Below are positions 10,869 to 58,918 of a stretch of 64,000 bases of DNA, piece by piece. The stretch is from Methylocystis iwaonis (GTDB lineage Bacteria; Pseudomonadota; Alphaproteobacteria; Rhizobiales; Beijerinckiaceae): NCBI RefSeq assembly GCF_027925385.1, contig NZ_AP027144.1, positions 1-64,000 on the forward strand, read 5' to 3'. Position 1 is the first letter of the stretch. Every line of letters begins with the position of its first letter. The notes below the pieces were generated by a model that saw nothing but the letters and a program-made list of their open reading frames with translations, searched no databases and was not told where the DNA came from. A program made the translations under genes and the position numbers.

Positions 10869-10897
10869 AATATAGGGCCATTCTATTCTTTCGTCAA
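10869..10897 (-). promoter_or_regulatory. Sigma70-like promoter of DUF932 operon
   Basis: On the minus strand TTGACG (10892-10897) and TATATT (10869-10874) are separated by exactly 17 bp. The same boxes and spacing recur at 48865-48893 before ssb, although the spacer sequence has diverged, which argues for selection on the promoter. Confidence 0.8.
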
Positions 10898-10910
10898 TTT
10901 AAAAAGGCAG

Positions 10911-11299
10911 CCAATGTGATTTTACGTTTTGTTTTTATTTGTGTTCCGCGCTCCGATGTTCCTTGTTCGACGCGCCGCAGGCGTGGCGAAAAGCAGACGT
11001 TCCTCGTCCCGACGCCTTTGGCGTCAACGCCGCGCGCAGCGCGAGTCACCCGCAAGGGGCGTCGCTTGCGACGCAGCGCATTTACGCGCTTGACTGCGCG
11101 AGCACGGCGTTATGCTGATGGGTCGAGACGAGAACGAAAAAATATGTGCGCCGAAGGCGCACGCCGCTTAGAATCGGCGTCGCGCTTTGCGCGACCACAT
11201 AGGATGATGCGCGATGGGATCGTTACCCGAAGGGCGGAGACCCGCAGGGGCTCCGGGAGCGCCGACGGCGCGAGTAGAGCCCGGCCCGGAGGGCGCGCC
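10911..11299. repeat. Hairpin-rich long direct repeat, copy A
   Basis: This 389-bp segment is nearly identical to 48908-49267. It contains a string of small perfect hairpins with 6-7 bp GC stems and 2-3 nt loops: 11011-11025 (GACGCC/GGCGTC), 11059-11074 (GCGTCGC/GCGACGC), 11146-11162 (GTGCGCC/GGCGCAC) and 11179-11195 (GTCGCGC/GCGCGAC). The last lies in about 30 bp missing from copy B. Differences from copy B within hairpins fall in loops (TTT versus TTC, GAA versus GAG), so the stems are kept. No convincing open reading frame spans it. Confidence 0.9.
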
Positions 11300-17752: not shown

Positions 17753-20182
17753 TTGAGGCCGTTCGTGCAACAGTGGCTCAAACGATCAATAAAATTTGGT
17801 TCTCGCGCTTCGTTGGAAATTCCTGTCGCGCGTCATTTACCGTTTTTGAGACACGCTGACGCTCGGACGATCGTGACGAAAGACGGTCATTTCGTCAGTG
17901 TCGTGAAAATGGGTGGCTTTTGTTTTCAGACCGCAGACCAAGCCGAAATCGACATGCGGTTGACAGCCCGTAACACTGTTATCCGGGCAATGAACGACTC
18001 TCGTTTTGCGGTGTATTCGCACATCGTACGGCGAGAGGTGTCCCCGACGATCGGGGGGCGGGTCGACAACTGGTTTGCCCGCGAGCTGGATCGGCGGTTC
18101 ATGGCGAGCCTCGCCGATAAGCGGATGTTTGTGAACGATCTCTATTTCACGGTGATCCGGCGCGGGTTTCAGGGCCGCGTGGGGTTGGCTGAGAGCATTG
18201 GAAAATATTTCCGCAAGAGCTTGGGCGCGGATGAGGCCGAGTTCCGGCGTGAGGCGATGCAGGAATTGCGTGATGTCGTCTCGAACCTCGAAAAGGAATT
18301 TAGGCGCTATCAACCCCGCGTTTTGAAAGCAGTTCGCCGAGGCGATGGGGTGTTCTCCGAGCCCTGCGAGTTCTTCATTCAACTTGTCAACGGGGGCATA
18401 CCCCAGCCGGTGGCGTTACCGCGGATGGGATTGGATCAGTACTTAGCCCCAAAGCGCGTGACGTTCGGGAAGAAAGCATTCGAGGTACGCGGGGCCTCTG
18501 AGGATGAAACCCGCTTCGGCGCGATGTTGTCGATCAAGGAATATCCGCCCTATTCGGGAGCAGGAATGATCGACGGGCTTCTTCGGATACCGGCTGAACT
18601 GATTGTCACGCAATCGTTCTCGCTCGCGGATCGGGCGCCGGTGTTGTCGCTGGTCAAGAAGGTCGAGCGTCAAATCAGCGCCTCCGACGAGGCAGGAACG
18701 GAAGTCGAGGAAGCGATAGCGACTGCACGAAACGAGCTTCTGACGAACCGGACAGTGCTTGGTGAGCATCATTTAACCGTCCAATGTCTGGGTCGCTCGC
18801 TTAAGGAGTTGGATCGCTGTTTGCAGGCGGCGAACGAAGAATTGCAGAGCATGGGTACGATCGTCGTTCGCGAGGACATGAATGGGGAACCCTGCTTCTG
18901 GGCGCAGCTCCCAGGCAATTTTGGCTATATCGCACGTAGGGCGCTGATCTCGTCCCGAAATTTCTGCGGGTTCGCAAGCCTGCATAATTTCGCGGTCGGG
19001 AAGGCGGACGGAAATCGTTGGGGTCCGGCGATTGCGATTTTGGAGACGACGAGCCAGACGCCTTACTACTTCAATTTTCATAGGCGGCAGGTCGGGTCGT
19101 TCACCGTCGTAGGTCCTACGGGCTCGGGTAAAACCGTCGCGCTCGGGTTTTTGCTGTGCGAGGCCATGCGTATTTCGCCGCGCCCGCGCGTGGCGTTCTT
19201 TGATAAGGATCGGGGCGCAGACCCGCTCATTCGAGCATTGGGCGGCCGGTATGAAGCGCTGATCCCCGGGCGTCCAACGGGGTTCAATCCGCTGCACGTT
19301 CCAGATACTCCCGTGGATAGGGCCTTCCTAAACGCGCTCCTACAATTTCTTGTGAGGCCGCGCGACGGGGGCGATTTGAGCGCGGAACAGCAAAAGATCG
19401 TAGAAAGCGCGGTCGAACAGGTTTTTGAGATACCGGTTCGTGAGCGGCGGTTCGATGAAGTGCCGGACCTGCTCCGAGGTCGCGAGCGGGCGAGCCACGA
19501 TGATCTGGCCTCGCGGTTTCAGGTGTGGCTCAAGAGCCGAGGGTGGCTTTTCAACAACGCCACTGATGTCTGGGACGCCTCGAGCGGCATATTCGGATTC
19601 GATATGACGCTCGTACTCGACGACGCGGACATAAGGACAGCGGCGCTCGCTTACATCTTTCACCGGATAGAGTCGATGATGGACGGAACACCGCTCATCA
19701 TGGTCATCGACGAAGGGTGGAAAATTCTGGACGATCGGAAATTCGCGACGTTTTTGAACGACAAACTCAAGACAATCCGAAAGCTGAACGGCATTATCGG
19801 CTTTGGAACGCAGTCGGCGCGAGACATTGTAACGGCGGAGAAGGGACACACTGTGCTCGAACAAACGCTGACGAACCTATTTTTCCCCAACCCAAGAGCC
19901 GATGAAGAAAGTCATCGGGTTCGGTTTGGCCTCTCCCACCAAGAATTTAAGTGGGTGAAGGACACATCTCCCGAGTCCCGCCAGTTTCTCATTAAGCACG
20001 ACCACGATTCTGTGATCGCAAAGCTCGATCTGTCTTCGATGCAGGATTTCGTGAAAGTGCTGTCAGGGAACGTCGAGACCGTCGCGGAATGCGAGGAATT
20101 GAGAGAACGGCTCGGGGATGCGCCCGAGAAATGGCTTCCTGTGTTCTGCGGTTGGGAGAAGGAGAGTCGCCATGCGCGGTAA
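17753..20182 (+). CDS. virB4: VirB4 ATPase
   Basis: This 809-residue T4SS ATPase energises pilus and channel assembly at the inner membrane. Walker A (GPTGSGKT) is at about residues 454-461 and Walker B (IMVIDEGWKIL) at about 645, followed by the GFGTQSARD motif. The start codon is TTG two bases after the virB3 stop; no ATG lies near, so TTG is likely real. The end overlaps the next gene by 11 bp. Confidence 0.95.
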   Translation: MRPFVQQWLKRSIKFGSRASLEIPVARHLPFLRHADARTIVTKDGHFVSVVKMGGFCFQTADQAEIDMRLTARNTVIRAMNDSRFAVYSHIVRREVSPTIGGRVDNWFARELDRRFMASLADKRMFVNDLYFTVIRRGFQGRVGLAESIGKYFRKSLGADEAEFRREAMQELRDVVSNLEKEFRRYQPRVLKAVRRGDGVFSEPCEFFIQLVNGGIPQPVALPRMGLDQYLAPKRVTFGKKAFEVRGASEDETRFGAMLSIKEYPPYSGAGMIDGLLRIPAELIVTQSFSLADRAPVLSLVKKVERQISASDEAGTEVEEAIATARNELLTNRTVLGEHHLTVQCLGRSLKELDRCLQAANEELQSMGTIVVREDMNGEPCFWAQLPGNFGYIARRALISSRNFCGFASLHNFAVGKADGNRWGPAIAILETTSQTPYYFNFHRRQVGSFTVVGPTGSGKTVALGFLLCEAMRISPRPRVAFFDKDRGADPLIRALGGRYEALIPGRPTGFNPLHVPDTPVDRAFLNALLQFLVRPRDGGDLSAEQQKIVESAVEQVFEIPVRERRFDEVPDLLRGRERASHDDLASRFQVWLKSRGWLFNNATDVWDASSGIFGFDMTLVLDDADIRTAALAYIFHRIESMMDGTPLIMVIDEGWKILDDRKFATFLNDKLKTIRKLNGIIGFGTQSARDIVTAEKGHTVLEQTLTNLFFPNPRADEESHRVRFGLSHQEFKWVKDTSPESRQFLIKHDHDSVIAKLDLSSMQDFVKVLSGNVETVAECEELRERLGDAPEKWLPVFCGWEKESRHAR

Positions 20183-20918
20183 CGTGGCTTTCGCATTGGG
20201 ATGCCTGCTTTCGACGACGGCCTTGGCCGCCGTTCCGGTCGCGGACGCGCCGCGTGAGGGGACTGAAAAGTCCATTTCCGACTGCATGAAAAAGGCACGT
20301 CAATCCAAGGACGACACCCTGAAACCGTCGAAGGGAATTACGGGGAGCGTCAAGTCGCCGGGGACCGGCGCCGGGCAGACGCCGGGTGGAACGAAGGATG
20401 TCACGGGTACGACCGCAGACGCCGGCAACAAGGTCGCAAACCTCGATGTGAGCCCGATGATGGCCTATGGGCCACAGTCGGTTGGGGGATTGAGTGTGAA
20501 GTCGGCCGCGCAGTCGGTCGCGTCTTCCCAGGCCGTCTCCGGGGCGCTTAGCGACAGCGTAGGCGGGTTTCAGAGCGCCGGGGCGTCAGTCGGCGGGATC
20601 GACCCGATACAAGGGGCGTGGAATCACAATTCGGTCGCGAGAGTCGGTAACGGCTCACTTTGGAACCAAGCGATTCAGGTCACCGCTGTAGAGGCGGATT
20701 TGATGACGCAGCGCACGTTGCGCGGAGTGTATTCGCAGAACGCGGACTCCTCGGTGATGAGCTTCGACCCCATGCTGATGACCTTGGTCGGCGCCGCCGC
20801 GGCTTTAAGCGCGGATAATTCACAACAGTCAGTATTGTTGACACCGTCCTACAACGCGGTGTCGGCCAATTTGGGACAGGTTCAACGTCAAGCCGCGAAT
20901 GGAGGCGTCGTGAAATGA
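20172..20918 (+). CDS. Exported T4SS-associated protein
   Basis: The start at 20172 is set by GGAGAAGGAGAG upstream and the following signal peptide (FALGCLLSTTALAAVPVA). The 248-residue product is Ser/Gly/Ala-rich. It ends with SSVMSFDPMLMTLVGAAAAL, close to the MTFDPAKMTLVGN end of the next protein, VirB5. The two probably share a C-terminal packing motif, so this could be a VirB5-like minor pilus component or its partner. Insertion of such a gene between virB4 and virB5 is unlike the Agrobacterium or Brucella order. Confidence 0.75.
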   Translation: MRGNVAFALGCLLSTTALAAVPVADAPREGTEKSISDCMKKARQSKDDTLKPSKGITGSVKSPGTGAGQTPGGTKDVTGTTADAGNKVANLDVSPMMAYGPQSVGGLSVKSAAQSVASSQAVSGALSDSVGGFQSAGASVGGIDPIQGAWNHNSVARVGNGSLWNQAIQVTAVEADLMTQRTLRGVYSQNADSSVMSFDPMLMTLVGAAAALSADNSQQSVLLTPSYNAVSANLGQVQRQAANGGVVK

Positions 20919-21792: not shown

Positions 21793-22853
21793 ACGACATC
21801 ATTGGGAAGTTCTTCGCCGCGATTGATACGCAGGCGTTGACCGTAGTGCAGTCACTCTATGAAACGTTGGCGACAGCGCTTGAACCCATATTTTTTCTGG
21901 GGCTGACCGTCTACATAGCGATGTGGGGCTATCAGATGATGTTCGGGCGTGCGCCGTTGCACGCCTGGACGATCCTATGGAATGTTGCGAGAGCGATGCT
22001 GATCTATACGCTCGCGTTCAAATGGGCGGAATATTCGGCAATCGTATCTGATGTCTTGACGAAGGCGCCCGACTCGTTCGCGACGGCTGTGTGCAACGCG
22101 ATGGGTGGAACGAATTGCGGTTCGCCGGAAGCGTCGGTCTCAAACGGGCTTACAACGCTCTGGATGGCAGCTCTCGACGCCGCGAAGAAGATCATGGCGG
22201 GAGGTGGAACGTTCTCGTCGGTCGGGTTGGCCATTGTGGCGGGTCTTCTTTTGGTGGTCACGCTCGTATTCTTGGCGATAGCATGCTCGCTGGTGTTGCT
22301 CGGCAAATTGGCGCTGTTTGTGGTACTTGGACTTGCGCCGTTCTTCGTGGCGATGGCGCTTTTTGACGCTTCGTCCTTCTTGTTTAATGGATGGATGAGG
22401 GAGGCGATAAAGCACGCGCTCGTGCCAGTTATCGTTTACGGAATGGTCGGCTTTTTCATTAAGCTCGGCCAGAATGCGATCAACAATCTTTCGACGATTA
22501 CCGATTTTACGAGCGCGATGACGGTGGTAGCTCCCTTCGTGCTCCTCATGTTCATTGGCTGGTTCGTCCTGCCCCAATCAATCGCAATCGCCGCCTCGAT
22601 CGTGGGCGGACACGCTCTGCGCGATCCCCTAACGCCAATGGTGCAAGGCCGGATGGTGAGCGCGGGAGAGCGTGGTTGGAATAACTTTACGGGCGGGTTT
22701 GCGGCTGCAAGGAACGCTTTGGCGCTGCGTTTGGCGAATGCGCGAGCCGCAGGCATGTCTCAAGGCACGAATACGATGTTTGACGGCGGGAGCGGTGGCG
22801 CGAGCGCGGTCGGTCGACAAATTCAGGCGGCGTTGCGCAACGTGAGGCGCTAG
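21789..22853 (+). CDS. virB6: VirB6 polytopic membrane protein
   Basis: This 354-residue protein has about six membrane helices (for example FFLGLTVYIAMWGYQMMFG, LLLVVTLVFLAIACSLVLLGKLALFVVLG, VVAPFVLLMFIGWFVLPQS) and a hydrophilic Gly-rich tail. It matches VirB6/TrbL, which forms part of the inner-membrane channel. Four-base coupling joins it to the VirB7-like gene. Confidence 0.92.
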   Translation: MNDIIGKFFAAIDTQALTVVQSLYETLATALEPIFFLGLTVYIAMWGYQMMFGRAPLHAWTILWNVARAMLIYTLAFKWAEYSAIVSDVLTKAPDSFATAVCNAMGGTNCGSPEASVSNGLTTLWMAALDAAKKIMAGGGTFSSVGLAIVAGLLLVVTLVFLAIACSLVLLGKLALFVVLGLAPFFVAMALFDASSFLFNGWMREAIKHALVPVIVYGMVGFFIKLGQNAINNLSTITDFTSAMTVVAPFVLLMFIGWFVLPQSIAIAASIVGGHALRDPLTPMVQGRMVSAGERGWNNFTGGFAAARNALALRLANARAAGMSQGTNTMFDGGSGGASAVGRQIQAALRNVRR

Positions 22854-22869: not shown

Positions 22870-23625
22870 ATGCAAACCAATGAGCGACAGAACGGGTCTG
22901 ACGAAGATCCGGTTGGGAAGTCTTACTATCGCGACGGCGAGCGGTGGGAGCAGGAAGTCTACCGGAAGGTAACGCTGTCACGCGACGTGTGGCGAATTGT
23001 GGCGGTATGCCTTGGCGCGGGAGTCGCCGTCGCTCTCGGCGTGCTCTGGGAGCTGGTCCCGTTGAAATCGACTGAGGTTGTCGTCCTCGAAGTCGATAAG
23101 ACGACGGGCTTCACACAGGTCGCCCGGCCGCTCGAAGAAGGGGGACCGATCTCTGAACGCGATGCGGTGACGCAGGCTTTCATCGTGCGTTATATCCGGG
23201 CGCGCGAGACCTATGATCCGCCCGCGCTGCGAGACAATTTCGAGCTTGCCTCTTTGCTGTCGTGCTGTGCGGCGGCAAAAGAGTTGCAGGAGCTATATTC
23301 GGGTTCAAACCCGAAAAACCCTGTGAAACTTTGGGGTATTCAGACTCGCGTGAGCGTGTACGTCAAGTCTGTGAATTTCCTCACGGACCAATGGAAGACT
23401 GATCCACGGACGCCGGGGACCGCCGCGGTGCGGTTTGAAACGACGCGGCGCGGTGAGCATGGCGACAGCGTCACCGAGCATTGGTTCGCCAACGTCAGAT
23501 TTCGTTACACGGCCGAGCCGCTCAAGAACGAGTTGCGATATGACAACCCGCTTGGCTTTCAGGTCATTGAATATCGCAAGGACCAAGAAAGCGTAGCGCC
23601 GACCGTCGCGGGAGGCGTCCGGTGA
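22870..23625 (+). CDS. virB8: VirB8 assembly factor
   Basis: This 251-residue bitopic protein has a cytoplasmic N-terminus, one membrane helix near residues 41-60 and a periplasmic NTF2-like domain with FIVRYIRARETYD and the conserved NPLGFQV near the C-terminus. It nucleates the T4SS core. Its stop overlaps the GTG start of virB9. Confidence 0.93.
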   Translation: MQTNERQNGSDEDPVGKSYYRDGERWEQEVYRKVTLSRDVWRIVAVCLGAGVAVALGVLWELVPLKSTEVVVLEVDKTTGFTQVARPLEEGGPISERDAVTQAFIVRYIRARETYDPPALRDNFELASLLSCCAAAKELQELYSGSNPKNPVKLWGIQTRVSVYVKSVNFLTDQWKTDPRTPGTAAVRFETTRRGEHGDSVTEHWFANVRFRYTAEPLKNELRYDNPLGFQVIEYRKDQESVAPTVAGGVR

Positions 23626-24473
23626 GAGAAAGCGCGAGATTTGCGGTGGCGGTTTGTGCAATGGCCGTAGCGTCTTCCGCGATGGCGGAACGAGCGCCGC
23701 GCCCAGTGCCGGCGGACTACAGGATTAGGACCGTGCCGTTCGAGAAAGATAACGTCGTGATGCTTTATGGCACCATGGGCGTCTCGACGATGATCGTTTT
23801 CGGTGAGGATGAACGGATCGCAACGGTAGCGATGGGCGACACGCTGGCATGGCAGGCGGTGCCCGACCAGTCCAAACGCTTTTTGTTCCTCAAGCCGTTA
23901 GATCGGGACGCGGCCACGAACATGAACGTCGTCACAAACAAGAGGATTTATAACTTCGTCCTTAAGCCCGGAACGATCGGGGGCGAGAGGGCGGTTTACA
24001 AACTGCGTTTCACCTATCCCGATGAAGAGAGCAGCGCTCGCCTTCTCAATCAAGCAAGGGAGATGGCGGCGTGGCCGAATTTGAAAGGACTGACGTGGGA
24101 GAACATGAACCTCGACTACGTCTACAAAGGCAGAGAGATTACCAAGCCCGCAAACGTCTTCGACGATGGCGTGAAAACCTTTTTCTATTTCGAGGGTGAC
24201 GTACCCGCGATCTTTCAAGTCAACTCAGACATGACCGAAACGCTCGTAAATTACCGTCGCGAAGGAAGGTGGATCGTGGTGGATAAGGTCGCGGGGCAAT
24301 GGACCTTGCGTCATGGCGATGAATCCACCTGCGTGTTCAATTTGCGAGGTCGCAAAGAGGAAATGCCGCGCGTCGATGTGACGGACGTTCAACCGACGCT
24401 GCAAGCGCAACACGCGCCAACCGAAAATGTATTCGAGCGGGTGCTTTCGACGTTGGCCGCCTCGCAACAATAA
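23622..24473 (+). CDS. virB9: VirB9 outer-membrane core protein
   Basis: This 283-residue exported protein has a GTG start overlapping the virB8 stop, a signal peptide (about 1-22) and VirB9 motifs: an N-terminal RIRTVPFEKDNVVMLYG segment and a C-terminal region with NYRREGRWIVVDKVAGQWTLR. With VirB7 and VirB10 it builds the outer-membrane ring. Confidence 0.93.
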   Translation: MRESARFAVAVCAMAVASSAMAERAPRPVPADYRIRTVPFEKDNVVMLYGTMGVSTMIVFGEDERIATVAMGDTLAWQAVPDQSKRFLFLKPLDRDAATNMNVVTNKRIYNFVLKPGTIGGERAVYKLRFTYPDEESSARLLNQAREMAAWPNLKGLTWENMNLDYVYKGREITKPANVFDDGVKTFFYFEGDVPAIFQVNSDMTETLVNYRREGRWIVVDKVAGQWTLRHGDESTCVFNLRGRKEEMPRVDVTDVQPTLQAQHAPTENVFERVLSTLAASQQ

Positions 24474-29233: not shown

Positions 29234-29401
29234 GATAGGGTCGCGGATCGGTGGCGACTTTGGTAGTGAATTCCGCGTTATATTTCGGCGAGGGACCGGC
29301 CTTCGGTAGTGGGTCCGTTTGCATTTCGCCAATGCGTCATAAGCGGCCGTAAATCGATGACAGGTTAGCGCCACGAGCGGACATTCGCCCGATAGTTCCA
29401 T

Positions 29402-29539
29402 ATGGGCCGCCCGCGCAAGCTCACCCGCCATCAGCGCGAGGAGGCTCTTGCAGCCCTTGCCAAAGGGACGGCGACGCAGGCAGACTTGGCCCGCCGTTTC
29501 AACGTCAACGGCAGCACAATTTCGAGGCTTGAACCTTGA
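29402..29539 (+). pseudogene. Resolvase C-terminal fragment
   Basis: These 45 codons encode only the hinge and helix-turn-helix of a serine resolvase (MGRPRKLTRHQREEALAALA to STISRLEP). They differ from the end of the resolvase at 738-1288 at about four residues. The catalytic domain is missing; upstream sequence (29234-29401) holds no matching coding segment. The stop overlaps the next ATG (TGATG), preserving the same coupling to a downstream cargo gene seen at 738-741. It might be translated as a free DNA-binding peptide, but decay is more likely. Confidence 0.85.
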
Positions 29540-30300
29540 TGGACAGCGAAGAGCTCGACTCAGCCGTTGAGGCTCATCAACGCAAGCTTATAGAGGCCGC
29601 CGGAACGCTCATGGCCGTGCAGCGGGTGTGTGGCGATAAGGTGCGGGAGCAAACAAAAAGCGCCTACAGGCGGTTGACTGATGCTCACCTGCTAGTGACA
29701 GGAGTACTTGGAGCTGCGTTGCTACGGATCAATGGGATTGTAAAGCCTAGCACCAATAATAGCCAGGAGCGCAATGCTTTGTTTGCGGCATTTGTTATCG
29801 GGGCTCCTACCTGCGAGAATACAATTAAGGAGGGAAGGTATTTGCAAGCTAGTTGTCTGTTGCGGCAAGAGATGGAACTGCTCACGCAGCTCAAGGCGGT
29901 GAGAGCTGGACAGCGCGAAGAGAAACGACGCTCACCCAATATCTCGGCGCTCAAAGACAGCGGCTTTGGGGAATCGCTAGCGCGGCTGTATGACGAGCTG
30001 TCCGCTGCCGCGCATGCTTCGAAGCACCATATCGTCAGTTCCGTGACCGCGTATGAAGTTTCTGGCGATGATCTCCCCGGCCCAACCAGCGGGACACGTT
30101 ACTTCCCTGAGTTTGACGAGGGTTGCGCCCGTCGCTCCTTCAGTTTGCATTTGTTACTGACCGTTGGGATCATTGAAGAGTTCGGTATTGCTCTTCGTGA
30201 AAACGGTGATGGCGAGGGGTTGAGCGAATGTGAGATCGAGGCCATCAATTTGGCTTTGGATTTAATGAAGGCAGAGGGGATGATTGAGATTAGTGTCTAG
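29539..30300 (+). CDS. Helical cargo protein of unknown function
   Basis: This 253-residue soluble, mostly helical protein is not firmly recognised. LLRQEMELLTQLKAV, followed by LYDELSAAAHASKHH, resembles the R-E/Y-H pattern in DUF5677-like and some HEPN-related proteins, by eye only. ATG at 29539 is chosen rather than TTG at 29536. It is coupled to the resolvase fragment and sits before a copy of the 38-bp site, so it is cassette cargo, probably defence or stress related. Confidence 0.6.
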   Translation: MDSEELDSAVEAHQRKLIEAAGTLMAVQRVCGDKVREQTKSAYRRLTDAHLLVTGVLGAALLRINGIVKPSTNNSQERNALFAAFVIGAPTCENTIKEGRYLQASCLLRQEMELLTQLKAVRAGQREEKRRSPNISALKDSGFGESLARLYDELSAAAHASKHHIVSSVTAYEVSGDDLPGPTSGTRYFPEFDEGCARRSFSLHLLLTVGIIEEFGIALRENGDGEGLSECEIEAINLALDLMKAEGMIEISV

Positions 30301-39101: not shown

Positions 39102-42100
39102 TTACTCGCGGTGGCGTGGTTTCTCGCTTTGGCGCTCGGTCTCACGCTGTTTCTCGCGTTCGAGATTTGCGCGGTCCTGTTGCGCCTGCTTGTCCTTCGC
39201 TTGTTGGTCTTCGGTTAGAACCTTGGACTGTTCTGCGCGGAGCTCGCGAACTCTCTCTGTCGCGTTGGGGTTGGCGGGAATTTCCCTGCGAGGATTTTCG
39301 TCGGCGGCGCGATCGGCGTCACGGGCGGCGGCGGCTTCGGACGACGCGACGGGGTTGGGTTTGTGCGACTCCGTGGCCTGGCGAGCCTCTTGGGTTTCGC
39401 GTTTCGCCTCCTGATCGAGTCGCTCGCGCACCTGGTCCAGGGCGATGACGCGCTCGGCGTCCGTGCGGCCGGGGCCTTTTTCGTCGGCGCGCACGGGGGC
39501 GGTCTCAGACTCGCGCTCTTTTTCTTTCGGCGCATTCTGGTTGGCTGCGCCGGTGGGCGCGTCGGCCGGCGTCTGGACGGCGGAGGTCTGTTTGGCCTCG
39601 GCTGGCTTGCCCTGGGACTCGGCCGAGGCGGGCGCGGTCTCTTTGGCGGGTTCCTTTTCCTTCATGCCTTCGCGCATCGCGGGGCGTTGTGCCTCGATGT
39701 CGGCGCGGGCCTTCTCGATACGGTCTTGAAGCTCGGGATTTGTGATTTTGAATCCGTGCTCGGCGGCGAGCTGAACAACGGTCTCTTTGTATTTTTCGTT
39801 GCCGGTGATGTTGATTGTTTCCCACTTCGAAGCAGCGACGCGCAGAGCGGCAAGCACCGTCTCTTTGTGGTTCCAATCGTTGACGTCGAGCTGCTTTCCC
39901 TTGTCCACGAAGGCGAGGGCGACGCGCTGGCCAGTGTCGTCATGGCGGCTGTAGTGGATTTCACTACCTTTGCGCTCGTGGGTAATCTGCGGCGTTGTCT
40001 CGATCGGCGCGGGCTGGACGTACTTGTCGCCGGCCATTTCGACGGGCTTGGCTTCAAGCCGCTTCTGGGCCTCGATCGCCTTTTGAGCAGCGTCGAGGAT
40101 GGTGGTGCGTTGTTCCTCGAAGGCTTGCTTTTTGTCGGGCTCAACCATGGAGCTGATATTGTCGAGGCGCTTGCGCATATCGTCGAGGGCGTAGGTCATC
40201 GTTTCTGCGGTTCTCATCTGGCCTCCGTCTTTGATCGTTCGGCTTTCCATGTGGCTGACGGCTCGCTCCGCACGCTGCTTGAGCCGATGTAGATCGGCGT
40301 GCGGGATAGGCTGTCGTTCGGCGGCAACGCGCGCCGGAACGGCAAACATCGTATCAGGATTTATATTTGCGCGTTTTACCTCTGCAAGTCGCTCGCGCGA
40401 AACGTCGAGGTAGACGAGCTGCCCGCCATTGTGGGCGGCGAGGGTTTCGGCGGCGGCGCGGTCGGCTGTGAACATTACGGTCGCGTGCGCGGGTGCGTTC
40501 TTTGGCTCTGCCCGGTAGAGGCGCAACGCGCCCTCGCGCAAAGGCGGCATGGCAGCCGTAGCGGCGAGGCTCTGATTGACGGCGCCCCATTCGCGCGCCA
40601 CGCGGCTCGCGTGGGCGCGGCCTTCGTCTCGGGTGGGGCGGTGGATGGCCCGCTCCTTCACGGCTTCCACGCGGCGCCGGACCGACTCCGGGGCAGTTCC
40701 ACGCTCGACCATGCGAATGTCCTTGAGCTTGTAGGCCGGTACATTCGCTTCATCGAAGCGGCTGGTTGCCTCCATGGGGATTTGTCGCTCTCGCGCCTCT
40801 TCGGCGAGGGTCTCGCGCCAACGGCGGAAGTCGACAATGTTCGGGTGGAGCCGCTCGCCGCGCTCGTTCTCCATGCGGATGGCGGCGTGAACGTGAATGT
40901 GCTCCCGGTTCGTGTGCAGAACGAAGATGTATTCATGACCGGCAAACTCTTTCGCGAGCGTCGCGCGCGTAGCGTCGAGGAAGGCGTCCTTGTCCGTGCT
41001 GGGCTTGGCGCTGAAAACGACATGGGCGAAATCGCGTGGCTCGTTCGAGCGCATCTGGCGGCGCCAGGATGTTGCCATCTCGAGATTGGGATTGAAGTTG
41101 TCGCTCGGTGATTTGCCGGAACGCCGCTCGTAGCGCTGGAAGGCTTCTTCTTTTAAGTCCTGCTTGCTGGAGGTCTCCGCGTCCAGCTCCCCGGCCCGAG
41201 TTAGTCGGGCGAGCTGTCGGGTTGCTCCTTCAATGCCATGCGCCCAGCCTTGGACTTCAATCTTCGCGTCGCGGTCAAAGGCGGTCTCGATGCGGTCGTA
41301 TAGCCCCTCGGTAGATTTCTTGTTGGGATAAAAGCGATCGGCCTTGCCGTTCTCGTTGCGCTGCGATCCGGCCGCAAGCGCGACAACATGAACATGGGTC
41401 TGGTCGCCGCGAGTCTCCGCGCGCCATGCGAAGACATGGCCGCGCAGCGCCTCATGAAGAGACTCGCGAATGGTCTCATTCGTCAACGGCTCGTCGAAAG
41501 CGGCTGTGAAAGCGAGCGAGTCTTTCGACGGCTCGCGCCCGCTGGACTCCGCGCCCCATTCGGAGGCGAGGGCGGAAATGTCCTCGGCCCCTTTGAGGAT
41601 TATCCCGTCGTGACGCTCGGCGGCGAGTTCCCCTTTGTCGGTCTGGTAGCTCATCAACGCATGAGCCCGCGCCCGGCCGGCGCCGAAACTTGCGAGTTTG
41701 ACGACGGCGGCCTGTGATCCTCCTGCGAGCGCGGATTTCACAACAACAGAGGACCGCTCCGGCCCCTGCGAAGCGGCGGGGCGGGCCTTGGCAGTCGGCG
41801 CTACTGGCTTCGACCGAACGGCGGGCGCTGCGTCGCCTCCGCCACCTCCCCCACCTCGGCGCCGCCGTTTACGCAGCCCTTCGTCTTCGATCTGGCGCGT
41901 ATCTTGGGATGCCGGCGCGGTGGGCGCACGGTCTGGCGTCTCCGTTGTGAAGGGCGAGGGCGCCGCCCGCGTGACGCTCGGAGTTTGCTTCTCGGGTCGC
42001 GGTGCCCGCGCCGGTTGGCCGGCGTCGCCAATCTCGAACGACGGGGCCGCGCCAGCGAACGCCGCAGCGCTCGCGAAGTCGCTCCCGCGACGCCGCGCTC

Positions 42101-42173
42101 TCAACCTCTCCAGCTCGGCCTGCATTTCGCCCAAGCCCAGTCCAATGTCCGACAGAGGAAGCCCGCCAGTCAT
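39102..42173 (-). CDS. MOBP-type relaxase with LPD7 domain
   Basis: This 1023-residue protein starts at 42173, overlapping the accessory gene stop (ATGA). After a low-complexity N-terminus comes a relaxase-like region with a candidate Tyr (ALMSYQTDKG, Y176) and HxH (THVHVVAL, 260-262). A second HxHxH region (REHIHVHAAIRM, 425-429) preceded by HEYIFVLH follows. An LPD7-like domain lies near 740-830 (GSEIHYSRHDDTGQRVALAFVD), then a charged tail. It should nick oriT, stay on the 5-prime end and pilot the strand into the recipient. Two metal-binding-like modules in one chain are unusual. Confidence 0.9.
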   Translation of the reverse strand: MTGGLPLSDIGLGLGEMQAELERLRARRRGSDFASAAAFAGAAPSFEIGDAGQPARAPRPEKQTPSVTRAAPSPFTTETPDRAPTAPASQDTRQIEDEGLRKRRRRGGGGGGGDAAPAVRSKPVAPTAKARPAASQGPERSSVVVKSALAGGSQAAVVKLASFGAGRARAHALMSYQTDKGELAAERHDGIILKGAEDISALASEWGAESSGREPSKDSLAFTAAFDEPLTNETIRESLHEALRGHVFAWRAETRGDQTHVHVVALAAGSQRNENGKADRFYPNKKSTEGLYDRIETAFDRDAKIEVQGWAHGIEGATRQLARLTRAGELDAETSSKQDLKEEAFQRYERRSGKSPSDNFNPNLEMATSWRRQMRSNEPRDFAHVVFSAKPSTDKDAFLDATRATLAKEFAGHEYIFVLHTNREHIHVHAAIRMENERGERLHPNIVDFRRWRETLAEEARERQIPMEATSRFDEANVPAYKLKDIRMVERGTAPESVRRRVEAVKERAIHRPTRDEGRAHASRVAREWGAVNQSLAATAAMPPLREGALRLYRAEPKNAPAHATVMFTADRAAAETLAAHNGGQLVYLDVSRERLAEVKRANINPDTMFAVPARVAAERQPIPHADLHRLKQRAERAVSHMESRTIKDGGQMRTAETMTYALDDMRKRLDNISSMVEPDKKQAFEEQRTTILDAAQKAIEAQKRLEAKPVEMAGDKYVQPAPIETTPQITHERKGSEIHYSRHDDTGQRVALAFVDKGKQLDVNDWNHKETVLAALRVAASKWETINITGNEKYKETVVQLAAEHGFKITNPELQDRIEKARADIEAQRPAMREGMKEKEPAKETAPASAESQGKPAEAKQTSAVQTPADAPTGAANQNAPKEKERESETAPVRADEKGPGRTDAERVIALDQVRERLDQEAKRETQEARQATESHKPNPVASSEAAAARDADRAADENPRREIPANPNATERVRELRAEQSKVLTEDQQAKDKQAQQDRANLEREKQRETERQSEKPRHRE

Positions 42174-42568
42174 TCCGCCGTCCGCGAGATGGCGCGCGCG
42201 GCGCGTTCCTGCGACCGGGCGCAGAGGGAGCGATAAAGGGCGGTCAGTTCCATGATGAGCCCGCGCGCGGTGGCAAGCCATTCCGCCACATCGTCGCTTC
42301 CGATGACGTGTCCAGCGTTCATGTGCCGGACGGCCTGATTGAGATTTGTGCCAAGGGCGCGAAGCTGTCGGGTGAGTGCAACGATTTCTGCGCGGGCGTC
42401 GCCTTCGAACGTCGGCCCCATAAAGACGGCCTGCCTCACAAAGCGTCGCATGACCTCGCTCGGCGAGAGGTTCACCTGTGCACAAAACCCCTTGAACGCG
42501 TCGTGCTCTTCCGCCGTGAGGCGCACCTGAAGGAGGGCGGTTTTCGGCCGCTTCGCGCCTTGATCCAT
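42170..42568 (-). CDS. Relaxosome accessory protein (TraJ/MobC-like)
   Basis: The start at 42568 is chosen after CGGAGA; the 132-residue product has an N-terminal ribbon-helix-helix (TALLQVRLTAEEHDAFKGFCAQVNLSPSEVMRRFV). A MobC-like helical tail follows (LRALGTNLNQAVRHMN). Such proteins bind the oriT inverted repeat and recruit the relaxase. It starts about 75 bp from the oriT palindrome and is coupled to the relaxase gene. Confidence 0.9.
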   Translation of the reverse strand: MDQGAKRPKTALLQVRLTAEEHDAFKGFCAQVNLSPSEVMRRFVRQAVFMGPTFEGDARAEIVALTRQLRALGTNLNQAVRHMNAGHVIGSDDVAEWLATARGLIMELTALYRSLCARSQERAARAISRTAE

Positions 42569-42643
42569 CCGGGTCTCCGTTTCGCGTCCGGTCCCGCTAG
42601 GGACTGCCGGACGCGACGCAAGCCCGCCCGGCGAGGGCACACC

Positions 42644-42699
42644 GCGCTTTTGTAATACAAAAGCGCTTTCCTGCCTTGTCTAAACTAACCTACACTAAC
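42644..42699 (+). other. oriT: Putative oriT (palindrome, nick site, direct repeats)
   Basis: A perfect inverted repeat with 11-bp arms (GCGCTTTTGTA / TACAAAAGCGC, 42644-42666) is followed at once by TTTCCTGC (42667-42674), close to the IncP-type nick motif ATCCTG|C. A 10-bp direct repeat (CTAAACTAAC, CTACACTAAC, 42680-42699) follows. Flanking relaxase/accessory genes leftward and TraK/L/M-like genes rightward match the RP4 layout. The predicted cut is after G42673 on the plus strand. The rest of 42700-43398 shows no supportable gene. Confidence 0.8.
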
Positions 42700-43398
42700 T
42701 CGTCAATTCCATTTCCGCTTCGAATGAAACTCCGGGAGGCGCACGCAAGCATTCGGAATGGAACTCAACAGGGCGCGGACACGAACATTTTGGCCGGTCC
42801 ATGCGACGTATGACGGTGGTTCGTGGCCATGTGTTGTGATGATGTTAGGATAGCATTGTTGATATGCGAGCTCATTTCAATGCGATAGATGGGCAGCTAT
42901 GAGGCGCTAGGATGAGCTGTTCATTGACAAGCCGATAAACCAACCATGTGCCACTTACGCGGCGGCCTGTAGGACAGTGCTTGCGCTTCTAATGCCTCTC
43001 TATATGTATTAGACTGCCATTCCGATTTGATTGCCGTCGAACGATGACAGGGACTTATTGCGATGACGAAAGGCGTTAATGGTCTGATAACCGGTTGTCG
43101 TATGGCTAGAACGATGTCTCTCCTAGTGCCGGGTAGCGGGGGAATTGCTCCGCCATCCTTGTGCTCACAACTTCCAAACAATGTTGGTATTGCAGGAATC
43201 TTAAGGGGAGTTTCTGCGACGGCTTTCAACGCTCATCGTCTGTCTCATGGCACTCAATTGCGAATTTCAGCGGGAAGTCTAGGCGCGCTGGTCGAGCTAA
43301 TCGAGTCTGCCTCTGAGGCACAAGAAGGCGCGTTGTCTGTCTGTCGAAAAGCTCGAAGGCGGCTTGGGCATAGGCCGTAAGGAAGGAGGGCGATTGCG

Positions 43399-43854
43399 AT
43401 GGTGGAGCGGGATGACGGGCGTCAAACGGGAAGCGGACGGCGAGAGACCTATCAGGCTGATGACCTGACGAAGATGGCGGAAAAGCTAGAGGCTCTCCCT
43501 GACGCCGGAGGTCGGAGAGAGCTATCACGGGCGAATGCTGTGAAGTTTTTGGAGCCGCAAATCGAAGCCCTTCGGAAGAAGGGCTACACAACGAAGGAAA
43601 TTTGCGAGTCTCTCACTGAGGTAGGTTTGAAGATCACGCCTGCGCAGCTCTGGAAACTAATGCCGGTGGGGAAATCGACTGCAAGGGGAGTGAGCGGCGC
43701 GGCGGGGTCGGCGTCTAAGGCGGGCTCTGGTGCGGAGCGCAGAAGCCAGACGGGAGGATCGAAGACCGCAGTAAAAGGGGACAAGGGGAAATCGAATGCG
43801 GCAGCGCGGGAGCCGCAAGGGTTTTCTGTGAAGCCGGATCGTCTTGAGATTTAG
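43399..43854 (+). CDS. TraK-like oriT-region protein
   Basis: This 151-residue basic protein has a helical N-terminal domain (ANAVKFLEPQIEALRKKGYTTKEICESL, then VGLKITPAQLWKLM), typical of TraK/MobC-side DNA-binding proteins. A Ser/Gly/Lys-rich tail follows. AAGGAGGG lies before the ATG. Position between oriT and a ParA-like gene is that of traK in RP4, whose product wraps oriT. It is the first gene of a three-gene operon. Confidence 0.75.
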   Translation: MVERDDGRQTGSGRRETYQADDLTKMAEKLEALPDAGGRRELSRANAVKFLEPQIEALRKKGYTTKEICESLTEVGLKITPAQLWKLMPVGKSTARGVSGAAGSASKAGSGAERRSQTGGSKTAVKGDKGKSNAAAREPQGFSVKPDRLEI

Positions 43855-46430: not shown

Positions 46431-48401
46431 TCACTCGGCCGCGAGCGGAAAGGGCTCGTCGTTGGCGCGTTCGTCATCCGCTTCTGCCTCGTCGTCGCCC
46501 TCGATGTCATTGGCTGGCGCCAGCGTCGTTTTGAGCGGGCCGGGAAGCCAGCGCGCATCTTTCATTTTCTCAACGAAGAGAGAAACGGCGTCGGCCTTTT
46601 GAACGTCGAGGATGTTCTTGGCTTCCCATTCCTCGCGGCCCGCCTCGCGCAGAGCGTCGGCCATGTATTTTTTGGAAACGCGCTTGCCGAAGTCCTTTGA
46701 CGGCCGCCAATAATCGGCCATGTCGAAGTCGATCGCTTGGGCGATCTGATCCGTGTAAGGCCGCTTGGCCGCGTCGATCTGTGCGGCGAGAAGGTAGGCC
46801 ATGAGATTTGAAAGCTCCTGCGGCTTCGCGTCGAGACACCACGCCCAAAGGTCAGCGGCGCGGCTTGGGAGCTTCGCCCGCCAGTCGGCGGCGAGGGCGT
46901 CGAGCGTCTCGAACGGTTTGGCGTTGGCCGGGTCGTCGGCTTTGAGGGTGCGGACGGGCACGCCCGCCCGCAAGCCAAGCGAGGAAGCGTAGGACTGGTG
47001 GTAGAAGGCGTCGAGAGCGAGATTGTGAACCAAGGCGGCGAGCGCGACGTCGGGGCGTTTCGCGAGTTCACAGGCGAGCGCGGCGCTGCGGGTCGTCGTA
47101 AGGTCGAAAACGAGAGCGTCGGTCAGATTGGCGGCGGGCGCTTCGTCGGCGGCGGCGCCAGTCGAGCCATTGGCAAGGCGGGCGGCCTCTTTCCGGTCGC
47201 CCGGTTTCACAACGCCCCGCTCGATCCGGAGCGCGCCGCTGTAGTCGATTGTAACGATGACGCCCGCCGTCGCCATTTCGGCCGAGTCGTAGGCGGTGTA
47301 TCGGTCCATGATCGCCGCGCGCTCGTCTTCGAGGTCGTCGCGTTCTTTGAAAAGCCTGTTTTCCGCGGCGTCGTCCTCGATGCTCTCAGCGTCGATTTCG
47401 ATTTCTTGCAAGCGGGCGTCGATGACGTCGATCCGCTTCGCGTCTTCGGGCGAAGGGTCCGTCTCTTTGGGATAGATACGGCTCAATCCGCCGCTGTGGT
47501 AATTATACTCTGTCGCGGTCTCCACCCACTTCCAACCCTCGCCGCGCATGGCCTCGGCTTCCTGTTCCAGCTTTGCGGCGGCAAGGCGATGAAGCAAGGT
47601 GCGATCGGTGAGGCGGATGCGGCTTTCGTCGTCATCAAAGAGGTCACGTAGCACGACGCCGCCCAGCTGCTCATAGACTTCGACGGTCACGAAACGCGCC
47701 ATTTTATCGCTGGCCAGCGCGGCTTCGGGACTCAGGGCGGCGCGCAGCTCGTCGGGGTCGCGCTGCCACTCTTGCGCGTCGAACCATGCGGCCTCTTGAG
47801 CCGCGTGGTCATCGGTAAGCGCAAGCGCTTGAAGCTGCTCAAGCGTAATGGCGTCCTTGCGAAGCTCGGCCAATAGGTTCGGCGACACGTTCGCGAGCTT
47901 GAGGCGGCGACGGACGGTCATATGAGAAACGCCGTGACGGTCGGCAATGGCTTCCGGCGTCAAGCCTTCTTCTCGTGCGAGGCGGCCGTATGCTTCGATT
48001 GCATCGGCGGGGTGCATATTCTCCCGCGAGGTATTCTCGATCAGCGAGACTTCGGTGGCGCTGGCGGCGGTCTCGTCAATCTCGCGGACGCGAACGAGAA
48101 AGTCAGCGGTAACAGGAACGCCATCAACGCTCGCCTTCTTCGATTTAAGGAGATTGAGCGCCTTGAGCCGGCGATTTCCAGCCGTGACGAAGTAGCAGTT
48201 TTTGGGGGCCTTCTCGCCGGGGCGCGGGCGGCGGACGGTGAGATTCTGCAAGAGGCCCATGGTCTGGATGGTGGCGGCGAGTCCTTCAATTCCTGCGTCG
48301 CTCTCATAGCGGCGCACGTTCTCGGGGTCGGCGCGAAGCTGGCTGAGCCGGATCGCCGAGACAGGTTCCTTGGTCGATTCGGACTGATTCTTGGTCGTCA
48401 T
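46431..48401 (-). CDS. Large ParB-like nuclease-family protein
   Basis: This 656-residue protein starts at 48401 after GGAGAGAG. The N-terminal ParB/Srx domain has GNRR at 75-78 and ENTSREN at 122-128. A KorB-like helix-turn-helix follows (about 147-170, EAIADRHGVSHMTVRRRLKL), then a long helical C-terminus of unknown fold. Such long ParB-like proteins are carried by alphaproteobacterial plasmids and the first-entering regions of F-type plasmids. It lacks a ParA partner, so partition is doubtful; control or nuclease functions are possible. Confidence 0.88.
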   Translation of the reverse strand: MTTKNQSESTKEPVSAIRLSQLRADPENVRRYESDAGIEGLAATIQTMGLLQNLTVRRPRPGEKAPKNCYFVTAGNRRLKALNLLKSKKASVDGVPVTADFLVRVREIDETAASATEVSLIENTSRENMHPADAIEAYGRLAREEGLTPEAIADRHGVSHMTVRRRLKLANVSPNLLAELRKDAITLEQLQALALTDDHAAQEAAWFDAQEWQRDPDELRAALSPEAALASDKMARFVTVEVYEQLGGVVLRDLFDDDESRIRLTDRTLLHRLAAAKLEQEAEAMRGEGWKWVETATEYNYHSGGLSRIYPKETDPSPEDAKRIDVIDARLQEIEIDAESIEDDAAENRLFKERDDLEDERAAIMDRYTAYDSAEMATAGVIVTIDYSGALRIERGVVKPGDRKEAARLANGSTGAAADEAPAANLTDALVFDLTTTRSAALACELAKRPDVALAALVHNLALDAFYHQSYASSLGLRAGVPVRTLKADDPANAKPFETLDALAADWRAKLPSRAADLWAWCLDAKPQELSNLMAYLLAAQIDAAKRPYTDQIAQAIDFDMADYWRPSKDFGKRVSKKYMADALREAGREEWEAKNILDVQKADAVSLFVEKMKDARWLPGPLKTTLAPANDIEGDDEAEADDERANDEPFPLAAE

Positions 48402-48476
48402 GGCTCTCTCTCCAAAGGTCCAATGAATGCTTGCGGGGAGCAAGCGAGCGCCCGGTGACGCCCGCTGTGTTGATCG

Positions 48477-48864: not shown

Positions 48865-48893
48865 AATATAGGGTCACTCTATTCCATCGTCAA
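48865..48893 (-). promoter_or_regulatory. Sigma70-like promoter of ssb operon
   Basis: On the minus strand TTGACG (48888-48893) and TATATT (48865-48870) are 17 bp apart, the same boxes and spacing as at 10869-10897. It ends close to copy B of the long repeat. Confidence 0.8.
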
Positions 48894-48907
48894 TGTAAAA
48901 AATGCGG

Positions 48908-49267
48908 CCAATGTGATTTTTCCTTTTGTTTTTATTTGTGTTCCGCGCTCGGATGTTCCTTGTTCGACGCGCCGCAGGCGTGGCGAAAAGCAGACGTTCC
49001 TCGTCCCGACGCCTTCGGCGTCAACGCCGCGCGCAGCGCGAGTCACCCGCAAGGGGCGTCGCTTGCGACGCAGTGCGTTTACGCGCTTGACCGCGCGAGT
49101 ACGGCGTTATGCTGACGGGTCGAGACGAGAACGAAAAAATATGTGCGCCGAGGGCGCACGCCGCTTAGAATGCTTGCGCGATGGGATCGTTACCCGAAGG
49201 GCGGAGACCCGCAGGGGGCTCCGGGAGCGCCGACGGCGCGAGTAGAGCCCGGCCCGGAGGGCGCGCC
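48908..49267. repeat. Hairpin-rich long direct repeat, copy B
   Basis: This 360-bp segment is nearly identical to 10911-11299 but lacks about 30 bp holding one extra hairpin. It keeps the small GC stems with changes in loops. It lies between the ssb promoter (leftward) and a secreted small protein (rightward), just as copy A lies between the DUF932 promoter and a secreted nuclease. The surrounding promoter segment (to 48816) is also related, more weakly. Confidence 0.9.
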
Positions 49268-49327: not shown

Positions 49328-49603
49328 ATGCGAAAGATGCTTAAAAGATATTATGTCTGCAGTTTTCTTGTGGGATTGGTCGGGCTGTCGTCCCCTGCTT
49401 CTGCGCAGGACGCTTCCTTTGGTTGTAAGGTGTTTATGTGCGTGGCGTCGGGTAATTGGCAAAGCATCGAATATTGCGTGCCTTACGTGACAACTGCGAT
49501 CGCTCAAGCGCAGCTCGGGATACCTTGGCCTGTATGCACGGAGGCGCTGACCGGCGCGGTATCCCAAGGGCTACAGAGCGGCAATTCCCAGAACGGGGGG
49601 TAG
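49328..49603 (+). CDS. Small exported Cys protein (TrbM-like?)
   Basis: The start at 49328 follows AAGGAGG. The 91-residue product has a signal peptide (VCSFLVGLVGLSSPASAQD) and a mature part with FGCKVFMCVASG, then YCVPYVTTAI, a Cys pattern reminiscent of TrbM proteins of conjugative systems. It would act in the periplasm. A TTGGCG/TATAGT pair near 49272-49300 could be its promoter. Confidence 0.65.
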   Translation: MRKMLKRYYVCSFLVGLVGLSSPASAQDASFGCKVFMCVASGNWQSIEYCVPYVTTAIAQAQLGIPWPVCTEALTGAVSQGLQSGNSQNGG

Positions 49604-57235: not shown

Positions 57236-58150
57236 GGGGTCATCGTGGAATCTTCCACAAAACGCACTCTAAGCCGCATCAAGGAAGTCGGCGCGGGGGC
57301 TTCGTAGGGGGCGGAAGGTGTTTTGAAGGGGCTCGGCCGGCCAGACGTAATCGCCGTTGAACGCAATGTGCTCCCACCCGAGCGGAGCGATGTGGGCAAC
57401 GAGTTCGTCGGGGACGGTTTCGCCGCGGGAACGCAGCTCGTCGACGGCTCGTCCGAGATAGACGGTGTTCCAGAGAACGATGGCGGCGACCGCGAGATTG
57501 AGGCCCGAGGCGCGGTAGCTTTGGTTCTCGAACGTCCGATCGCGGATCTCGCCAAGGCGATGAAAGAACACAGCCCTCTTGAGGGCATGATGCGCCTCGC
57601 CCTTGTTGAGGCCGGCGTTGGCGCGGCGGCGCAGCGCGGGGTCGCTGATCCAGTCGAGCGTGAACAGCGTGCGCTCCAGACGACCGATTTCCCGGAGTGC
57701 CTTGGCGAGCGCGTTTTGCCGCGGATAGGCGGCGAGCCGGCGCATGAGCGCCGAAGGCGCGACGGTTCCAGCCTTGATCGACGCGCCCGAGCGCAGGATT
57801 TCGTCCCAGTTGTCGCCGACGACACGCATGTCAACCGCGCCACCGATGATCGAAGTGAGCGCTTTGTATTCCGCGTGGGTGTCCAGGACATAGAGCCTTC
57901 TATCGGCGAGATCGCGGATGCGCGGCGCGAAGCGGAAGCTTAAGAGGCAGCACAGGCCGAACACGTGGTCGATGGCTCCGGCGGTGTCGGTATAGTGCTC
58001 GCGAATGTCGAGCGCGCTTTCATGATGCAGCAGGCCGTCGAGAATATGGGCCGCCTCGCTGGCGTTGGCGGCGATGACCTTGGTGTTGAACGGCGCGTAG
58101 CGATCGGAGACGTGGGTGTAGAACTTCACGCCCGGCTCCGAGCCGTATTT
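57236..58150 (-). mobile_element. Tn3-family remnant inserted in tadG
   Basis: A 38-bp Tn3-type end (57236-57273, starting GGGGTCATCG and ending CTCTAAG) borders tadG. The remnant holds only the 3-prime part of its tnpA, cut at 58150 by a second Tn3-family element. The other end of this remnant is not seen in the window. Confidence 0.85.
57269..58150 (-). pseudogene. Tn3-family transposase, C-terminal fragment
   Basis: The frame reads PKYGSEPGVKFYTHVSDRYAPF at the break, then the Tn3 DDE C-terminal region (LRRRANAGLNKGEAHHALKRAVFFHRLGEI, AAIVLWNTVYL, PLGWEHIAFNGDY). Its stop lies within the terminal repeat. The N-terminal two thirds are missing. It is a different lineage from the tnpA at 58919-61776, with moderate similarity. 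Confidence 0.88.
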
Positions 58151-58178
58151 GGGGTCGTTTGCGGGAGGGGGCGGAATC

Positions 58179-58793: not shown

Positions 58794-58852
58794 GTTTCAC
58801 AAACGATGGTTTGGGGCGCCGGCGGCGCCCGAGCTGTTCTGGCGCCCAAATA

Positions 58853-58890: not shown

Positions 58891-58918
58891 CGCGAGCAAA
58901 ATTGAAAAAGGAACACAC

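Follow-up and report, generated by a model that had tools for sequence, protein, structure and literature searches.

A covarying fold in paired repeats of a Methylocystis iwaonis plasmid contig looks like a single-stranded DNA module common to Frpo-type, CUP-type and alphaproteobacterial plasmids

Two described systems come closest to the repeats reported here. In the Frpo (ssi) elements of F (IncF), the hallmark is a -35 and a -10 box paired in a stem of the folded single strand, and the Frpo of the original paper is reportedly 328 bp long. The CUP repeats, a name that the literature uses for IncN (R46/pKM101) and that we take to cover also the long repeats of R388 (IncW), are long repeats of one orientation before leading operons, with an ordinary promoter at the gene side. 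In work on F, Frpo1 and Frpo2 are given as 92% identical and placed 5' of ygeA/ygeB and of ssb respectively; without Frpo1/2 the downstream genes show no early rise, and loss of Frpo1 lowered F conjugation while loss of Frpo2 did not (PMC9849209). For R388, ArdK-repressed leading promoters are reported that rise after transfer (PMC3937220, PMC9723621), with ardC, ssb and other repressed genes among those rising (PMC3937220). Single-strand initiation sites of RSF1010, R6K and others are named in a further source (PMC7690428). Reported searches for Frpo-like elements have used BLAST (E 1e-6), first with the five sequences known and later with 13 putative ones besides, and a box consensus applied to four islands (PMC11541004, PMC12826799).

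The window, i.e. the whole 64-kb stretch analysed here, is the first part of a 235,811-base contig of Methylocystis iwaonis (NZ_AP027144.1). As an earlier sequence-only reading had noticed, it holds two nearly identical direct repeats about 38 kb apart, with 354 of 370 aligned positions identical (in aligned blocks, 96% identity over 274 nt and 100% over 43 and over 53 nt). Copy 1 (10901-11299, +) contains two elements, here called A and B, plus spacer hairpins, and lies 5' of a leftward DUF932-DUF3560 operon; copy 2 (48898-49267, +) lies 5' of a leftward ssb-ParB-like operon and is without about 30 nt of copy 1, a stretch with one hairpin. At the level of BLAST these two are the only copies in the own genome, and the best plasmid match, NZ_CP107560 of Methylocystis sp. 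MJC1, has the same two repeats. The repeat has no match at E 1e-5 among phage records. On the whole, the repeats are genuine and biologically meaningful.

The leftward promoter described before each repeat is found as well. For copy 1 it spans 10869-10897 on the - strand (TTGACG at 10897-10892, a 17-nt spacer, TATATT at 10874-10869) with an imperfect dyad CCCTATATTAAGGG across the -10 box, and for copy 2 it spans 48865-48893 (-) with the same boxes and spacing and an imperfect dyad CCCTATATTGAGGG. Its linear promoter score is 10 of 12 in both window copies, and the promoters of R388 (11 of 12) and R46 (10 of 12) score alike, all of them outside the folds, while the same promoter scan shows no good linear sigma-70 promoter in the F and ColIb modules. 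Pfam confirms the two operons. The first codes for a DUF932 protein (PF06067; 9936-10844, -), 39% identical over 270 residues to the DUF932 protein of the F leading region, and a DUF3560 protein (PF12083; 8959-9984, -), which has a stretch of only 30 residues in common with that of R388. The second codes for an SSB (PF00436; 48477-48815, -), 32% identical over 102 residues to F SSB, and a ParB-like protein (46431-48443, -), 30% identical over 632 residues to its F leading-region counterpart. The AAGGAGG context to the right of both copies is also there; behind it stand a PLD-like protein gene (PF13091; 11327-11950, +) at copy 1 and, at copy 2, a small ORF (49328-49603, +) with no Pfam match and a start that looks by eye like a signal peptide.

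A MOBP-type relaxase (PF03432 with LPD7; Pfam) is coded at 39102-42485 on the - strand. The + strand is the expected T-strand, because the folded strand (+; see below) is opposite to the relaxase gene, as the sequence-only reading had supposed in proposing that the repeats fold on the transferred strand. By position, the oriT would lie at 42640-43400, between the relaxase/mobC side and the rightward genes. Copy 2, on the + strand and with its ssb-ParB operon, is then about 6 kb away, and would thus have a leading-region operon downstream and its folded strand as the expected T-strand. Copy 1 has the expected strand too, yet, provided that the 235.8-kb contig is a complete circle, transfer would reach it about 204 kb after this putative oriT, which places it outside the leading region, on the lagging side. 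The notion of leading-region control elements would suit copy 2 and not copy 1.

Strings of GC hairpins are present as described, and the whole region folds more stably than all of 100 shuffles on both strands (z -3.3 on + and -4.0 on -); the folding energy of the repeat favours neither strand. The statement that differences between the copies fall in loops applies to 8 of the 11 substitutions from 10950 on, which are at unpaired positions, the other 3 being in predicted stems; 39% of the positions are unpaired.

Comparison of the repeat with plasmids by BLAST shows two separate conserved islands, elements A and B. Element B lies at 11209-11299 (+) and 49176-49267 (+). It is 91-92 nt long and multibranched: several B sequences agree on a closing helix, a GGG-A-TC/GA-G-CCC helix around three hairpins, and a fourth hairpin. 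BLAST at E 0.01 finds B in 153 plasmid records, chiefly from Bradyrhizobium, Mesorhizobium, Sphingomonas, Roseomonas, Agrobacterium and Methylobacterium. Because one hairpin was misaligned in an initial MAFFT alignment of 13 B sequences, the seed model was taken from an alignment of 7 sequences, all from alphaproteobacterial plasmids. This covariance model, R1, gave 28 matches (27 distinct) at E<=1 in 87 sources, in which both partners vary at 19 of 24 pairs and 93.8% of the 617 cells are paired, against 27-48% when the alignment is slid. A second model, R2, built from these 28 matches with R388 in the training set and no F, ColIb or R46 sequence, recovered 73 matches from 64 sources at E<=0.01, with both partners varying at 22 of the 24 pairs and pairing kept in 94.7% of the 1666 cells, against 30-46% when slid; both sets of counts come from alignments fitted to the model and lean towards it. 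Most of the 73 sequences also have the same two A.G mismatches, one of which is seen in 67 of them and the other in 70. Thus B is a real covarying fold.

As for the strand, the minimum-energy fold of both window B copies has the expected branching on + and not on -, and G.T cells modestly outnumber A.C cells (39 against 22 of 1666), which favours + as the folded strand. B alone is no more stable than shuffles (z 0.42 and -0.03); because of this, and because both strands of the repeat fold, we dropped stability as evidence, and the signal of B comes from conservation and covariation, not from energy. GNA triloops show no excess in B (2 of 6 by strict stems). The end of the duplicated unit is at B or a few bases from it in the window, in F, in R388 (by eye) and in R46 (a 124-nt block holding B). 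Among genomes of the same order, 36 of 397 have B at E 0.01, and by covariance model 33 of 398 Pseudomonadota genomes have it at E 0.001, the own genome being included in both counts. Two genomes (G927 and G791) have clusters of three B in the same orientation. In addition, the own genome has a third, diverged B (L257, 9717-9804, -) on a small plasmid of 15,866 bases (contig C6 of G000), which codes for a TraG-type coupling protein and, on +, for a MobA/MobL relaxase, so that B is again opposite the relaxase.

We then consider how B stands to the genes around it. In a first survey of 40 B loci of other genomes (40 of 50 non-own B places, 10 being left out), all 45 leading-type genes detected are coded opposite B (DUF736 13, ArdC 10, ParB-like 8, DUF2493 5, toprim 4, nuclease 2, DUF3560 2 and SSB 1). 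At least one such gene is found at 26 of the 40 loci and at 0 of 20 control windows, which were picked by hand at round positions on long contigs of 8 genomes, are not plasmid-matched, and show that the markers are not ubiquitous. A second survey, of 20 regions chosen among phylum-wide B places, has 33 of 34 genes opposite B and at least one gene at 15 of 20 loci, the controls again having none (0 of 20). Both surveys together give 78 of 79 leading-type genes opposite B over 60 loci, with 1 of 79 the other way and 19 of 60 loci having no leading-type gene by these queries. At seven loci an ardC match has B on its start side, at a distance of 198-291 bases, and B precedes ardC in R388 also. By crude ORF calling, the nearest left ORF runs leftward in only 24 of 36 B loci. 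Of 25 relaxases that share a contig with B and lie no more than 50 kb from it, 19 are opposite B (p 0.007) and 6 the other way, with 13 of 15 opposite where the E of B is at or below 0.001. This test took one B per contig, dropped contigs without relaxase, left out one pair 141 kb apart and kept three matches below the Pfam cut-off (G714, G438 and G380); a search for TrwC found relaxases in 3 of 45 genomes, none of them on the B contigs used. The sequence-only reading had named chromosomal scatter, with no link to oriT or ssb-type genes, as what would speak against it; such scatter is not what we find, because the relatives are linked to leading-type genes and to relaxases.

Element A (10957-11111, + and 48954-49108, +; boundaries by eye) consists of a box GTTCCTTGTTCGAC with a hairpin, a second hairpin GACG-TTCCT-CGTC, and a long stem with a GCNCAG/CGAGCA internal loop. 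It is a separable module which also occurs alone on other plasmids and in R388. By BLAST it has 18 plasmid records, among them R388 and small plasmids, a set distinct from that of B. Scanning the genomes for its pattern gave 61 stretches, with three loci (L017, L021 and L069) dropped as probable chance matches in coding sequence. GNA triloops, which are very stable in DNA, dominate the + strand of A in DNA folds of 65 copies, making up 105 of 160 triloops there and 8 of 153 on -; by strict 6-bp stems, 67 A copies have 19 GNA and 2 TNC among 48 triloops, and 24 other stretches have 25 GNA among 514. The two arms of the long stem pair at 72.5% of positions within sequences and 56.3% when shuffled between sequences, in an anchor-based count of 50 of the 67 sequences with 44 distinct arms, some of them clearly mis-anchored. 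In the main stem, GTCAA in the 5' arm often goes with TTGAC in the 3' arm. We tried A as a promoter and rejected it: TTGAC on the 3' arm is common, but a suitably spaced -10 box was not seen in the window. A as a leader RNA was likewise given up, the genes on its 3' side running in either direction.

Where A stands alone it often adjoins parA/rep genes or iterons of small mobilizable plasmids, as the RSF1010 single-strand initiation sites do in oriV, a likeness by position alone. By hand count, A is opposite the relaxase in 9 of 11 loci with a relaxase match and on the same strand in 2 (L038 and L043). The placing of lone A near par/rep genes, usually opposite the relaxase, would fit a start of the complementary strand. 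On mobilizable plasmids, A also lies alone about 500 bases from RepA genes (L011, L019 and L071) or 330-470 bases from a small HTH protein gene (L027, L036, L051, L052, L055 and L063), as if part of the replication region. In window 10958-11020 and relatives, the YYCYT in the first box changes together with the second hairpin's 5-nt loop so that the two remain identical copies (TTCCT/TTCCT, CCCCT/CCCCT and CCCTT/CCCTT in six plasmids), which simple pairing does not explain. In Acidocella KAb 2-4 (L064, A on the - strand), the stem interior appears by eye inverted and the arms palindromic, unlike the sister L035, an arrangement that resembles template switching or arm recombination.

It is of interest to look for B on the classic plasmids. 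In R388, R1 finds two sites, 24085-24216 (+) at E 6e-7 and 20079-20210 (+) at E 6.5e-7, inside the long repeats and 5' of ardC and of a second gene, presumably orf7. Both are on the T-strand, because the nic motif, in the sequence we assume for it, is on the + strand of the record. These B-bearing repeats are the ones that we identify, by their layout, with CUP repeats. In two intergenic stretches of R388 (23485-24216 and 19555-20246) a stem like the 3' part of A is seen by eye between B and the promoter. In F, the two sites found in the half of the plasmid searched are confident with R1 (E 3.8e-4 and 1.6e-3; in a scan of 14.5 kb, twelve others had E 1.1 or worse) and more so with R2 (E 2.1e-8 and 4.6e-7 in 250 kb). 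They lie on the T-strand, about 470 bases 5' of ssb in one case and of the gene preceding DUF932 in the other. Each is at the far end of the F repeat, which ends 8 bases past B. By position these repeats would be Frpo2, before ssb, and Frpo1, before the DUF932 operon, and the DUF932 gene would be ygeB, so the link to F that the sequence-only reading had drawn gains a common fold.

R46 has one significant site (E 7.4e-4, R2) and two weak ones (E 0.1 and 0.2) just past CUP blocks, all on the T-strand; over 63 nt the weak sites match the significant one with 86% and 92% identity. The significant site (22080-22163, +) has stbC on one side and a rightward gene near oriT on the other, and is not 5' of a leftward CUP operon. 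ColIb-P9 (IncI1) has two weak matches in 20 kb on the T-strand (E 0.0079 and 0.017), 5' of ssb and of the gene at 35334. In control windows totalling 400 kb, the best B match has 23.8 bits (E 0.033); the ColIb sites (20.7 and 19.2 bits) and the two weak R46 sites (20.6 and 19.3 bits) score below it, and so rest on position and strand, not on score. For F, R46 and ColIb we assign the T-strand from the leading-region positions as we take them to be known, and all nine B sites of R388, F, R46 and ColIb-P9 are then on the assigned T-strand. In summary of position, B is at the far end of the leading-region repeats of F and R388, and, as more weakly shown, of R46 and ColIb-P9.

How should the window repeats be classified? 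With F they have in common a near-identical repeat ahead of each of two operons, DUF932 and ssb-ParB, with the B fold at the far end on the T-strand. However, paired -35/-10 boxes are not clearly present, an ordinary sigma-70-type promoter being placed between fold and operon, and similarity to F does not reach BLAST level (best piece 16 nt, E 0.017, copy 1 against two F regions); because of these two points we do not file the repeats as Frpo. The sequence-only reading knew of no hairpin-array promoter of this form, yet the CUP repeats of IncN and IncW have the same layout. The window repeats follow it, with two near-identical repeats of one orientation, each before a leading-type operon, and a predicted ordinary sigma-70-type promoter at the gene side. 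The tested features of layout and promoter thus agree. B lies beyond the repeat on the T-strand, strongly in R388 (2 of 2 copies) and weakly at two R46 CUP blocks, and the link of B to IncN is weak. Differences from CUP are the middle part (element A with box GTTCGAC), the operator (a dyad over -10 in the window, ArdK direct repeats in CUP), the host class and the place of copy 1 outside the leading region; in R46, moreover, B sits in a block of its own, apart from the CUP block. B therefore looks like a conserved ssDNA module common to Frpo-type (IncF), CUP-type (IncW, probably IncN) and alphaproteobacterial plasmids. A wider reading, to which we give somewhat less than even odds, makes B the common core of leading-region single-strand initiation in Proteobacteria: Frpo (IncF, IncI1), CUP (IncW, IncN) and the elements of many alphaproteobacterial plasmids and ICEs would be one family, the fold being recognised single-stranded via its two A.G mismatches, with the promoter swapped and the initiator fold kept. 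This is made less probable because the significant R46 site is not at a CUP operon and the ColIb sites score below the best control match.

What may the repeats do? The reading we favour, with moderate confidence, is that they are single-strand initiation modules on the transferred strand, priming beside an ordinary promoter for early expression of leading genes. The + strand would enter the recipient 5' end first, bringing the operon, the promoter, A and then B, and A and B would fold on it. B, at the 3' end of the module, would mark the start of a primer (or transcript) running leftward; the chain from B would copy A, the TTGACG-TATATT promoter and the operon into double strand early, and the promoter, free of repressor in a naive recipient, would express the DUF932/DUF3560 and ssb/ParB-like genes. 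B is common to modules with a linear promoter (window, R388, R46) and without a good one (F, ColIb). Since B is kept while the type of promoter differs, a role as initiator or loading site is more probable for it than that of the promoter, and therefore priming next to a normal promoter is favoured. The B fold presumably acts as DNA and its job would be initiation, perhaps by priming rather than direct transcription; the last two points, initiation and priming, are the less certain. Several results argue against this initiation-module reading: copy 1 would be on the lagging side of oriT; the 6 relaxases and the single leading-type gene that run the other way, and the loci lacking leading-type genes; the nearest left ORF, leftward in no more than the 24 of 36 loci given above; the low scores of the ColIb and two R46 sites; the significant R46 site beside stbC; the solitary A of R388, which is on the non-transferred strand, the same as the relaxase; and the reportedly unlowered conjugation of F on loss of Frpo2 (PMC9849209).

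Direct transcription in the Frpo sense is the strongest competitor, although we think it rather unlikely. Here the folded T-strand would form stem boxes from which RNA polymerase transcribes the operon, the linear promoter serving later. B is common to the F repeats that we identify as Frpo1/2, which are reported to be needed for early expression (PMC9849209), and the main stem of A, with GTCAA 5' and TTGAC 3', has the right geometry for a leftward run-off. Against this, copy 1 has no match with both boxes paired above 0.7, the paired match of copy 2 is weak (8 of 12, with a 19-nt spacer), and the strong window promoters are largely unpaired at -10; R388 and R46 likewise have their promoters outside the folds. 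The paired boxes that mark Frpo are thus absent from copy 1 and doubtful in copy 2, and the interpretation of the sequence-only reading is on the whole partly supported. The scan for paired boxes is itself a poor test, because on the known cases it gives one weak match at F ssb and fails on the other F copy and on both ColIb copies.

That the + strand is transcribed rightward, with B or A acting as a structured RNA (sRNA or leader), is improbable. Strand and covariation alone cannot separate RNA from DNA. However, the window has 0 Rfam 15 matches at gathering score, the best weak match inside the repeat being at E 0.21; there is no consistent downstream gene, the nearest right ORF at B loci being on + in 21 and on - in 17 by crude ORF calling; and no common promoter is seen by eye 5' of A in 70 rows, near-copies apart. 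The loops of A are dominated by GNA on the + strand while only 2 of 41 tetraloops are GNRA, and G.T takes up just the 39 pair cells given above for B. Nor would an RNA explain why B is tied to the strand that serves as template for leading-type genes.

Slightly less credible still is co-regulation in double strand only, with one repressor-controlled promoter common to both operons and the hairpins incidental or a recombination substrate. The promoter and the dyad over -10 are indeed common to both copies, and the repression by ArdK in R388, described in the work cited above, is a parallel; but this leaves unexplained the compensatory changes in B across 73 sequences, the recurring A.G mismatches, and the presence of B in F without BLAST-level similarity. 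A mobile or recombination element of the REP, attC or resolution-site type, moved between plasmids, is very improbable: the edges of A are sharp by eye among unrelated flanks, A stands alone on many plasmids, and a serine-recombinase gene lies within the examined stretch of 15 of 67 A copies, yet B is 5' of leading-type genes and on one strand. A by itself may have a role in recombination.

With initiation on the transferred strand as the preferred reading, a B-type shape probably helps to switch on the first genes in a new host cell. In our searches of the open-access literature, no paper connects Frpo with CUP through a fold that both share, so that, within that literature, the covarying fold linking the F Frpo repeats, the R388 CUP repeats and the alphaproteobacterial elements appears new. 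While F sequences miss window copy 1 by BLAST, the covariance model of B reaches the 33 Pseudomonadota genomes counted above. B thus offers one testable shape for plasmid start-up while still single-stranded; it could tell the transfer direction of unstudied plasmids, and it flags candidate early genes beside each B, being strand-locked to ArdC, SSB and ParB-like genes.

Two other features of the window may be recorded. A Tn3-type transposase (59524-61188) lies inside 58144-61811, which is flanked by 45-nt perfect inverted repeats (58144-58188 and 61767-61811). In addition, an inverted repeat pair of 147 nt (734-880 and 29397-29543), 86% complementary, is present with its two parts 28.5 kb apart.
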